Origin: Williamsia sp. CHRR-6
Lineage (GTDB): Bacteria > Actinomycetota > Actinomycetes > Mycobacteriales > Mycobacteriaceae
NCBI RefSeq assembly: GCF_018474015.1
Contig: NZ_JAHCSG010000006.1
Location: forward strand, 62,001-126,000
DNA length: 64,000 nt
Direction: 5' to 3'
Part shown: positions 57,718-61,816 of the stretch, one piece after another
How positions within the stretch are numbered: the first letter of the stretch is position 1
Layout of the letters: every line of letters starts with the position of its first letter
The notes under the pieces: model-generated
Told to the model about the DNA's origin: nothing
The model's input: the letters and a program-made list of their open reading frames with translations, nothing else
Databases searched by the model: none
Made by a program: the position numbers and the translations under genes

Positions 57718-57942
57718 TCACGGTGAGGACCGCAATCCTGCCTTCCGCATGAGCAGGCTGGCCGGACACCACCCAACGGCGCTGTAGAAGAGCAGATTGG
57801 CGGCGACGAAGAATGTCACGATCGTCCACCACGGCGATACCGTCAGCGCCAGTGCGGCACTGAGGGCCACCATCACGCCTGCCAACGCGGGTACCGCTCG
57901 TTCGACAGTCATTCTTGAGCGAACATCTGCGGTGCTGATCAC
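57718..57942 (-). CDS. DUF2892 membrane protein
   Basis: A 74-residue protein with two membrane helices (about 16-33 and 38-55) ending in GWCPASLLMRK, the YgaP-type DUF2892 pattern with its Cys-Pro. In YgaP the same module is fused to a rhodanese; stand-alone DUF2892 proteins often sit beside rhodanese, CsoR/CstR or sulfur-trafficking genes. It is divergent from the DsbA-fold gene, and the promoter carries a CsoR-type palindrome across its likely -35/-10 spacer. Confidence 0.82.
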   Translation of the reverse strand: MISTADVRSRMTVERAVPALAGVMVALSAALALTVSPWWTIVTFFVAANLLFYSAVGWCPASLLMRKAGLRSSP

Positions 57943-57998
57943 GTGGATTCCTCCCTCAACTCGTCGGCTCGTTGGTCCGGCCGAACGCTGGACAATTT

Positions 57999-58014
57999 AT
58001 ACCCCCATGGGTAT
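57999..58014. promoter_or_regulatory. CsoR-type operator 1
   Basis: ATACCCCCATGGGTAT, a C/G-run palindrome flanked by A/T, the layout of CsoR/CstR operators. On the minus strand it fills the space between TTCGCA and TATAAA, the apparent -35 and -10 of the DUF2892 gene, so a bound repressor would block it. Confidence 0.75.
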
Positions 58015-58064
58015 TTTTGCGAAAGTCGATCACTGCTTGCGGAGGATCGGCTCCGTCTGCAAAT

Positions 58065-58080
58065 ATACCCATGGGGGTAT
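58065..58080. promoter_or_regulatory. CsoR-type operator 2
   Basis: ATACCCATGGGGGTAT is the exact reverse complement of operator 1, 50 bases away. It lies directly before the ribosome site (58083-58091) of the DsbA-fold gene and covers its -10/start region. Confidence 0.75.
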
Positions 58081-58095
58081 TTGAGAGGAGGCTGG

Positions 58096-58707
58096 ATGAA
58101 CGTCGAGTGTTACGTCGATCCGGCGTGTCCGTTCGCGTGGGCCACGTCGCGTTGGCTCACTGGTGTCGCGGGCCGTGACGACGTGACGCTGCGTCTGCGG
58201 CAGATGAGCCTGGTGGTTCTGAACGCTGAAGCGATCGCCGCCGGCGACATGAATCCCGTTATGGCGCACCACATGGCGGTCTCACGCGCGGGAGGCCGAC
58301 TGTTGGCCGCCGCCCCTGCGGACTCCTTCGCCGATCTCTATGCGGCACTGGGGCGTCGGATCCATCGTGATCACGCCGATGTGACCCTAGACGTCGCGCG
58401 AGCCGCGCTCGCCGAGTGCGGGCTCGACCCGCCGTTGGCCGATGCCATCGACGACCCTGCGCTCGATGAGGCGGTCGCGGGCGCCCATGCCGTCGCCGTG
58501 GCCGCGTACGGCGAGCCGTCGGGCACGCCGCTCGTCGCGATCGACGGCCGCACCTTCTTTGGGCCGGTGATCACCGAGATCCCAACAGGCGACGCTGCCG
58601 ACGACCTTCTCGACGCAGTGGCAGTGCTGGCCAGGACGCCAGCGTTTGCCCAACTGCAGCGGCCTCGTTCGGGGCCGCCCACTCTCACGACAGGGCAGGA
58701 GGGCTGA
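58096..58707 (+). CDS. DsbA-fold protein with a monothiol CPFA site
   Basis: A 203-residue paralogue of the Rv2466c-type gene at 24034. Shared layout: VDPACPFAWATSRWL at the N terminus, LRLRQMSLVVLN, and GTPLVAIDGRTFFGPVITEIPTG around the cis-Pro. The active site is Cys11-Pro-Phe-Ala14, so the second (resolving) Cys is lost. It could form a mixed disulfide with mycothiol, hold a persulfide, or act as a monothiol reductase; it cannot form the internal disulfide. GAGAGGAGG stands 5 bases before the ATG. It is the first gene of the operon running to the DUF302 gene. Confidence 0.82.
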   Translation: MNVECYVDPACPFAWATSRWLTGVAGRDDVTLRLRQMSLVVLNAEAIAAGDMNPVMAHHMAVSRAGGRLLAAAPADSFADLYAALGRRIHRDHADVTLDVARAALAECGLDPPLADAIDDPALDEAVAGAHAVAVAAYGEPSGTPLVAIDGRTFFGPVITEIPTGDAADDLLDAVAVLARTPAFAQLQRPRSGPPTLTTGQEG

Positions 58708-61037: not shown

Positions 61038-61066
61038 CCCCAGGACACGAGATGAAGGAGACAACG

Positions 61067-61477
61067 ATGGAACTCGGACTGCGCACGACGCTGACCGATA
61101 TCGACTTCGCCACCGCGCGCGAGAAGGTGACCACCGCTCTGAAGGACCAGGGGTTCGGCGTGCTCACCGAGATCGACGTGCAGGCGACCTTGAAGCAGAA
61201 GCTCGGCGAGGACATGGAGCAATTCACGATCCTCGGCGCCTGCAACCCCACGCTGGCGCACAAGGCACTCGGAGTGCAGCCTCAGATCGGGATGCTACTG
61301 CCGTGCAATGTGGTGGTTCGCGCTGACACGACCGACGAGTCCGGGCGCACGATGATCGTCGAGGCGATGAACCCCGACCTCATGGTGTCAGTCACCAATG
61401 AGTCCGGACTGGTCCCAGTCGCCTCGCAGGCCGCCGAACTCCTCGGCAAGGCGATCGCTGCCCTCAGTGCCGCCTGA
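61067..61477 (+). CDS. DUF302 protein
   Basis: A 136-residue DUF302 protein: DIDFATAREKVTTALKDQGFGVLTEIDVQATLKQKLGEDMEQFTILGACNPTLAHKAL and VVRADTTDESGRTMIVEAM. The conserved Cys in GACNP is present. The family has no proven activity but often lies beside sulfur-oxidation, CsoR/CstR and arsenic genes. AAGGAG is 6 bases ahead of the ATG at 61067. It lies 29 bases after the MMPL gene. Confidence 0.86.
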   Translation: MELGLRTTLTDIDFATAREKVTTALKDQGFGVLTEIDVQATLKQKLGEDMEQFTILGACNPTLAHKALGVQPQIGMLLPCNVVVRADTTDESGRTMIVEAMNPDLMVSVTNESGLVPVASQAAELLGKAIAALSAA

Positions 61478-61505
61478 CCTCACCACCGTCGACCCCGGGG
61501 GATCC

Positions 61506-61521
61506 ATGCCCCCGGGGGTAC
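61506..61521. promoter_or_regulatory. CsoR-type operator 3
   Basis: ATGCCCCCGGGGGTAC is a near-perfect palindrome of the same type as operators 1 and 2, 28 bases before the repressor ATG and followed by its ribosome site. It would allow autorepression. Confidence 0.65.
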
Positions 61522-61549
61522 GATTGGGTTGACCTACGGGAGGACTGCC

Positions 61550-61816
61550 ATGACTGGAGATGACGAGACGATCGCCCTGGTGCTGAACCGACTGCGACGC
61601 GCGCACGGGCAGTTGGGCGGCGTGATCTCGATGATCGAGAACGGCCGCGACTGCAAGGACGTTGTCACCCAACTCGCTGCGGTGTCACGGGCCTTGGACA
61701 AGGCGGGCTTCAAGATCGTGGCGACCGGTCTGCGGGAGTGCATCACCGGTGACCCCGGGGCCAAGGAGCCGATGACCGAGTCCGAGCTCGAGAAGCTGTT
61801 CCTCGCACTGGCCTGA
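61550..61816 (+). CDS. CsoR/CstR-family repressor
   Basis: An 88-residue all-helical repressor: [42 protein letters not shown]...[10 protein letters not shown]. Cys35 and Cys64 match the two Cys ligands of CsoR (Cys36/Cys65 of the M. tuberculosis protein), with the same 29-residue spacing. The His ligand, four residues before the second Cys, is replaced by Gly60, so trigonal Cu(I) binding is not expected. Persulfide-sensing CstR also has the Cys pair without the His. GGGAGG lies 6 bases before the ATG. It is likely the repressor of the three palindromes. Confidence 0.88.

Follow-up and report, generated by a model that had tools for sequence, protein, structure and literature searches.

The 64,000-nt window analysed here, a stretch of contig C6 in the 4.0-Mb genome of Williamsia sp. 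CHRR-6 (G000; G and L numbers designate the genomes and loci compared), carries at 57.7–61.8 kb a locus that very probably constitutes a persulfide (sulfane-sulfur) responsive regulon under a CstR-type repressor, as judged from its sequence and from analogy with characterised systems. From a divergent promoter, the gene for a YgaP-type transmembrane (YgaP-TM) protein is read leftward, and the genes for a DsbA-like protein, a Cys-rich peptide, an MMPL-family transporter, a DUF302 protein and the repressor are read rightward (Table 1). We favour a response to persulfide because the corresponding loci of relatives partly hold persulfide dioxygenase (PDO) genes and because sulfane sulfur is sensed in Streptomyces coelicolor by a repressor that shares this operator and Cys pair. 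The gene list of the first-pass annotation, in which the YgaP-TM gene appeared as DUF2892 (presumably the older name of PF11127), was borne out by Pfam matches or by reading of the sequences.

The repressor and its operators

The repressor has the PF02583 (DUF156) fold and a Cys pair, Cys35 and Cys64, with Gly60 at the position of the copper-ligand His, as the first-pass annotation had correctly read, and the operator ATACCC-N4-GGGTAT lies before its target genes. By these sequence features, it is a CstR-type, not a copper-type, protein of the CsoR family. The spacing of the Cys pair was 29 residues in all 54 homologues (54/54), and the copper-ligand position was occupied by Gly in 48, Ser in two, Asn in one, Ile in one and His in two, both His-bearing homologues being CsoR-like outgroups. 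The best PDB match was 7mq1, identical in sequence to 7mq2, which is named CstR in PMC9774590. In a midpoint-rooted tree of 59 rows, with few columns and long branches, the CstR structure grouped with the clade of the window repressor, and the copper and nickel types fell on the opposite side (support 92/81). The repressor scored 40.4 bits against the RicR model (cut-off 175), 28.9 bits against the NCBIfam model of FrmR (cut-off 133) and far below the cut-off of the RcnR model. G000 contains three PF02583 genes: the window gene and a paralogue on contig C4, both Cys-Gly-Cys, and a Cys-His-Cys, copper-type csoR gene on contig C3 that adjoins a gene reading as a P-type ATPase. Homologues of the window repressor (P0005) occurred in 44 of 61 genomes, including its own, at E 1e-8 or better, and CstR-type genes, counted at E 1.8e-16 or better, in 40 of the 61.

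The two 16-base operators of the divergent promoter, O1 and O2, had been described as mirror images; they are exact reverse complements of each other and both match ATACCC-N4-GGGTAT exactly. The third, close site before the repressor gene, O3, departs from this consensus by two mismatches. Because the chance level of such sites is high (four in the window versus 0.56 expected; 41 in the genome versus 21 for a backward control), a single site with two mismatches is little proof. Of seven further loci fetched from the same genus, six (L055–L060) have a site similar to O3 ahead of the repressor gene, and L070 has a different one. Exact sites occurred at four places in the genome, versus none for the backward control and 0.01 expected under a third-order Markov model, which was fitted on ca. 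150 kb of the genome's own, partly overlapping sequence, operator sites included.

The search for further sites, proposed in the first-pass annotation, thus yielded two exact places outside the window, and the four places together represent three promoter regions of one gene set. Besides the two in the window, the site at C4:104482 lies directly upstream of a paralogous MMPL-DUF302-repressor operon, and that at C1:1014996 directly upstream of genes paralogous to those for the DsbA-like protein and the Cys-rich peptide. Therefore, the genome contains two partial, paralogous copies of the window operon under the same operator. The genes behind exact operators in G000 encode the DsbA-like protein, the peptide, MMPL, DUF302, the repressor paralogue, YgaP-TM and, divergently on C4, a protein that reads as penicillin-binding-protein-like. 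Sites at copper genes, which had been named as an observation that would count against the proposal, were absent: none of the four exact places lay at copper or other metal genes, and the copper-type CsoR is encoded by a separate gene. A gene reading as penicillin-binding-protein-like (cluster 11, present in four loci) was observed divergent from MMPL across the operator in two loci, L020 (4706–6415, −) and L059 (10171–11817, +).

Operator and repressor were inherited together. Of the 40 CstR-bearing genomes (G000 among them), 26 had exact operators, versus one of the 21 others (p = 5.6e-6); this count, like the others over 61 and 394 genomes, was tallied by hand from several listings.

A subfamily of MMPL transporters linked to the operator

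Homologues of the window MMPL split sharply, among the matches listed, into a subfamily with at least 53% identity and a remainder with at most 36%. The subfamily occurred in 19 of the 61 genomes, and every one of these 19 belongs to the 40 CstR-bearing ones (p = 7e-5, not corrected for the kinship of the genomes). In the class, it was found in 36 of 394 genomes; a repressor-type (P0005) gene, called here at E 1e-13, was present in 34 of these 36 (absent from G071 and G205) versus 165 of the 358 genomes without the subfamily (p = 5e-9, likewise uncorrected for kinship). Three members of the subfamily in the 61-genome set lie away from the repressor gene. Two of them keep the operator directly upstream of MMPL, with YgaP-TM and DUF302 downstream (L121 and L122), and L123 is without it. 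No operator was found upstream of the other, non-subfamily MMPLs (0/17).

In 80 named MMPL loci, which are closely related and represent the best-scoring 80 of 569 confirmed, a site with at most one mismatch lay within 400 bp upstream of MMPL in 68 and an exact one in 49. Changing the spacer to N3 or N5 left zero and six exact sites, respectively, versus 133 for N4. A variant palindrome, ATCCCCC-N2-GGGGGAT, was observed upstream of MMPL in L265, L266, L275, L281, L284, L285 and L289, where the usual operator is absent. On a contig of Kitasatospora arboriphila NRRL B-24581 (L165), the genes searched for were arranged as in Williamsia muralis (L170), for which a contaminated assembly or transfer is possible.

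Asp-Tyr pairs serve as the proton relay in MmpL3. The corresponding pairs in both halves of the window protein (D267-Y268 and D611-Y612) were invariant in 24 of 24 aligned members, and with these pairs and its MMPL fold, the window protein has the features of the MMPL/RND superfamily. Cys was absent from 23 of 27 full-length members of the subfamily (a 32-residue fragment, L069, being dropped from the count) versus four of 17 other MMPLs; this depletion is suggestive, but the sequences are related.

Gene company in relatives

The repressor, operator, MMPL, DUF302, YgaP-TM and peptide recur in Williamsia, Rhodococcus, Nocardia and Gordonia as well as in further families of actinobacteria. Among 52 repressor loci (50 fetched neighbourhoods plus two of G000; L104 among them holds a His-bearing CsoR), DUF302 was found in 30, the peptide in 27, the MMPL subfamily in 25, and YgaP-TM and DsbA in eight each; an exact operator was present in 31 and one with at most one mismatch in 41. 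The 80 named MMPL loci contained CsoR-family genes in 73 cases, DUF302 in 71, YgaP-TM in 51, the peptide in 31, DsbA in 28, PDO in 13 and TauE in 12 (in this set and the class-wide set below, matches to PDO, TauE and the CoA-disulfide-reductase type with E above 1e-15 were not counted).

Genes of persulfide and sulfite metabolism share these operons in part of the relatives. Gene clustering of 53 loci gave a lumped rhodanese-bearing cluster (PDO-rhodanese, reductase-rhodanese and lone rhodanese) in 16 and TauE in nine, and many of these genes stood directly behind operators. Family searches on examples agreed with the labels metallo-beta-lactamase (MBL) plus rhodanese, TauE, CoA-disulfide-reductase type plus rhodanese, molybdopterin sulfite-dehydrogenase type and thioredoxin, with scores below the NCBIfam equivalog cut-offs. 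The PDO example matched the BpPRF structure 5ve3, which we take to be a persulfide dioxygenase-rhodanese fusion, and the reductase example matched the CoA-persulfide reductase structure 8a56. PDO was found in 12 of 32 class-wide MMPL loci (32 neighbourhoods fetched of 40 class-wide matches listed). In a family other than that of the window (f41), ten class-wide loci held rhodanese, PDO, MMPL and peptide genes in one row. The plasmids pBD2 and pN9T4-1 carry MMPL, YgaP-TM, DUF302, TauE, the repressor and an MBL hydrolase. In the closest relative, L055, a sulfite-dehydrogenase-type gene (2302–3501, −) takes the place of YgaP-TM, divergent from the DsbA gene, with an operator at or near its start.

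The first-pass annotation had proposed a reactive-sulfur or electrophile system. Its sulfur half is well supported by the comparison: in part of the relatives, orthologous repressors and the same operator accompany genes for PDO-rhodanese, rhodanese, TauE and proteins like CoA-persulfide reductase. Its electrophile half gained little.

The other effector candidates

A profile of eight homologues of the DsbA-like protein matched the Rv2466c structure 5xur (E 4.9e-48). The protein shares the PF22234 fold with the Rv2466c type, but the CPxC dithiol active site of that type is replaced by CPFA, with one active-site Cys, which was invariant in the eight proteins aligned of nine collected. In Corynebacterium glutamicum, the C24S variant of the Rv2466c-type protein NCgl2478 was active and the C21S variant inactive, the first Cys sufficing on mycothiol mixed disulfides (PMC8280269). 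Given that an Rv2466c-type protein can work via its first Cys alone, the CPFA site would fit a mycothiol-persulfide or mixed-disulfide reductase.

The Cys-rich peptide gave no significant match to Pfam or PDB. Its residues C2, C7, C10, W15, C18, H21 and C35 were invariant in 23 sequences aligned of 30 collected, and C7 and W15 were nearly invariant in a second set of 21. Matches to this GKTTWAGCG-bearing peptide occurred in 73 plasmid records, most commonly in Rhodococcus (32), Clavibacter (16) and Mycobacterium (7). The peptide is often left without annotation, and a further example lies in L233 (7001–7174). In the DUF302 protein, Cys59 and Cys80 were invariant in 25 sequences aligned of 34 collected; its two solved relatives, 1j3m and 1q9u, have titles without an assigned function.

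Coordinates and neighbouring genes

Within the operon, the stop codon of the peptide gene overlaps the start codon of MMPL, and the genes downstream of the repressor gene read as rsmD and coaD. Homologues of the two genes on the other side, which encode a SLAC1/TDT-family transporter and a LysR-family regulator, occurred together in three of 50 repressor loci (L062, L067 and L091) and three of the 80 named MMPL loci (L203, L214 and L229). For a sulfite role of these two neighbours, no solved relative was found and a literature search gave nothing; as a guess, the transporter could export sulfite or another anion.

Table 1. Features of the CstR-type locus and its neighbours in the window (positions are those of the whole stretch)
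Feature	Position	Strand	Evidence and remarks
SLAC1/TDT-family anion transporter	55416..56549	-	PF03595, E 1.2e-76; neighbour, possibly linked; start codon inferred
LysR-family regulator	56665..57612	-	PF03466 and PF00126; neighbour, possibly linked
YgaP-type transmembrane protein, 74 aa, divergent gene	57718..57942	-	PF11127, E 2.6e-9, above Pfam cut-off; present in 51/80 named MMPL loci
Operator O1, ATACCCCCATGGGTAT	57999..58014		exact consensus match; among the 4 exact places in the genome
Operator O2, ATACCCATGGGGGTAT	58065..58080		exact reverse complement of O1; end 15 bases upstream of the DsbA start codon
Monothiol Rv2466c-like DsbA-fold protein, CPFA active site, 203 aa	58096..58707	+	PF22234, E 1.7e-39
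Cys-rich peptide, 55 aa, C-x4-C-x2-C-G-K-T-T-W-A-G-C-G-x-H	58711..58878	+	invariant residues in homologue alignment
MMPL-family transporter, 720 aa	58875..61037	+	PF03176, E 2e-72
DUF302 protein, 136 aa	61067..61477	+	PF03625, E 2.5e-22; ATG at 61067 (alternative in-frame ATG at 61052 possible)
Operator-like site O3, ATGCCCCCGGGGGTAC	61506..61521		2 mismatches; upstream of the repressor gene; similar sites in L055-L060
CstR-type repressor, CsoR family, 88 aa, Cys35/Gly60/Cys64	61550..61816	+	PF02583, E 1.7e-22, above cut-off

Comparison with known systems

The closest described circuit is that of S. coelicolor (SCO0618–0621: PDO-rhodanese, TauE, ScCsoR and rhodanese; PMC7533328). ScCsoR senses sulfane sulfur: Cys37 is persulfidated, neither Cys residue is dispensable, and the repressor comes off ATACC-N6-GGTAT in the presence of polysulfide (PMC7533328). 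Its Cys pair (Cys37/Cys66) is 29 residues apart, like that of the window repressor, and the likeness extends to the operator, two sites of which lie in the PDO promoter, and to autoregulation (PMC7533328). In contrast, the window regulon is without PDO and TauE, and the main text of PMC7533328 is without MMPL or DUF302. The cst operons of Staphylococcus aureus and Enterococcus faecalis likewise combine a Cys pair sensor, CstR, with a regulon of persulfide enzymes (PMC9774590, PMC9405070), but the effectors named there are rhodaneses and a CoA-persulfide reductase, and the term MMPL is absent from both sources.

The SUL module of the Arthrobacter plasmids pA8H1, pA40H2 and pA58H2 comprises a CsoR regulator, a sulfur dioxygenase, rhodaneses, TauE, DUF302 and a small unknown protein (PMC6305408). 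We found that pA58H2 holds an unannotated relative of the window Cys-rich peptide between its CsoR and MBL genes. The module differs in containing an MFS transporter, the MMPL of PMC6305408 being located in another module. On plasmid pRHL3 of Rhodococcus jostii RHA1, a cluster known from annotation alone (RHA1_RS43875–43925) contains, in a row, an MBL hydrolase, trxA, a carboxymuconolactone decarboxylase, the peptide, rhodanese, MMPL, the repressor, DUF2892, DUF302, TauE and an MBL hydrolase; unlike the window, it carries PDO-type and TauE genes.

The first-pass annotation had regarded the system as not previously described. The repressor type, its operator and sensing, and the PDO-TauE-rhodanese regulon are already known from S. 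coelicolor, as is the plasmid module joining CsoR, DUF302 and a sulfur dioxygenase from Arthrobacter. Literature joining MMPL with CstR or persulfide was not found among the matches listed in open-licence full text, save PMC6305408 with its MMPL in a separate module. Within the literature searched, the effector set is therefore new: an MMPL subfamily that has retained the operator in two of three cases apart from the repressor, together with the Cys-rich peptide and the Rv2466c-like protein with its single active-site thiol.

Proposed mechanism and alternative explanations

The sensing and release half of the mechanism that we propose is carried over from S. coelicolor by analogy, and the effector half, including each effector activity, is what we infer. 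Reduced repressor bound to the ATACCC-N4-GGGTAT operators would silence the YgaP-TM gene and the DsbA-peptide-MMPL-DUF302 genes, and might repress its own gene via O3. When persulfide or polysulfide rises, Cys35, together with Cys64, would be persulfidated or cross-linked, the repressor would leave the DNA and the genes would be turned on. A probable task of the monothiol Rv2466c-like protein is the reduction of sulfur bound to mycothiol. DUF302 and the Cys-rich peptide may carry or bind sulfane sulfur or metal, and MMPL, driven by protons, might export sulfur-loaded or damaged species. As the effectors lower the level of sulfane sulfur, fresh repressor would rebind.

Several observations weigh against a persulfide-responsive regulon of this kind. 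PDO-rhodanese was not found in eight same-genus genomes at E 1e-20; a lax search of G000 gave four weak matches (best E 8.9e-10), of which two read as glyoxalase-II-like and one as MoeZ-like. No site with at most two mismatches lies within 10 kb of the 11 rhodanese domain matches or the one TauE of G000. Regulons that include persulfide or sulfite enzymes are seen in some of the relatives but not in G000. Among the 32 class-wide MMPL loci, a CsoR-family gene lay within the stretch in 24 and a site with at most two mismatches upstream of MMPL in 17; L276, L278, L286 and L287 were without both. Fourteen of the 40 CstR-bearing genomes have no exact operator, and related genomes are non-independent, so that the p-values given above are too favourable. 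Within the CstR-bearing genomes, MMPL and PDO were not associated (both in five, MMPL only in 14, PDO only in 11, neither in 10; p = 0.12). Finally, a CsoR-family repressor of sulfur genes in Thermus was unresponsive to NaHS (PMC10318464). We also considered MMPL as a stand-in that excludes PDO; the joint counts of MMPL and PDO lean in this direction without being significant, several loci hold both, and this idea was rejected.

MMPL proteins have been studied mostly as exporters of lipids, siderophores and drugs, and it is possible, if somewhat unlikely, that the window MMPL exports lipids to repair the envelope, with persulfide acting only as the signal. This role, which is compatible with a CstR regulon, accords with the best solved relatives of the protein, namely MmpL3, a trehalose monomycolate exporter, followed by the siderophore exporters MmpL5 and MmpL4. 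However, the window MMPL reached 210.6 bits against the NCBIfam MmpL3 equivalog, far under the cut-off of 1400, and the subfamily extends to eight class families besides the window's own, in which mycolates are not expected; one of these eight, f41, has the ten loci with rhodanese-PDO-MMPL-peptide rows. Export of mycolates is kept as a rival, weakened by the spread to other families. A regulon for electrophiles or thiol oxidation, in which the Cys pair would respond to quinones, formaldehyde, HOCl or disulfide stress and the sulfur genes of relatives would be secondary, appears improbable. The formaldehyde response of FrmR within the CsoR family (PMC5016687), the demycothiolation role of Rv2466c-like proteins (PMC8280269) and an oxidoreductase that reads as quinone/alkenal-reductase-like (cluster 14) in four of the 53 clustered loci would fit it, but cluster 14 is not among the genes behind the operator, the FrmR score of the window repressor is low, and in relatives there is operon sharing with genes for PDO-rhodanese, TauE, rhodanese and proteins like CoA-persulfide reductase. 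A copper or other metal regulon, in which Cu(I) would release the repressor to turn on metal detoxification with the peptide as a metallothionein, was rejected as very improbable despite the CsoR fold, the G/C-rich operator, the Cys-rich peptide and the location of some loci beside heavy-metal genes on plasmids such as pBD2, given the replaced copper-ligand His, the lack of metal genes at the exact operator places, the separate His-bearing CsoR beside a P-type ATPase gene and the low RicR, FrmR and RcnR scores.

Implications

Under a persulfide-responsive CstR regulon, a common operator and the operons of relatives would tie four poorly understood protein types, namely the MMPL subfamily, DUF302, the Cys-rich peptide and the monothiol Rv2466c-like protein, to reactive sulfur. 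An MMPL branch under probable persulfide control raises a directly testable question of its substrate, and the genes are plasmid-borne in widely used strains, R. jostii RHA1 among them. We tentatively suggest, as a rather doubtful proposal, that the MMPL subfamily may be dedicated to exporting sulfane sulfur, whether as polysulfide, elemental sulfur or thiol-bound persulfide. The genus of the window, in which no PDO-rhodanese was found, may then dispose of reactive sulfur by exporting it instead of oxidising it to sulfite. We know of no earlier proton-driven exporter of persulfide or polysulfide; if the proposal is true, this MMPL subfamily would, to our knowledge, be the first.

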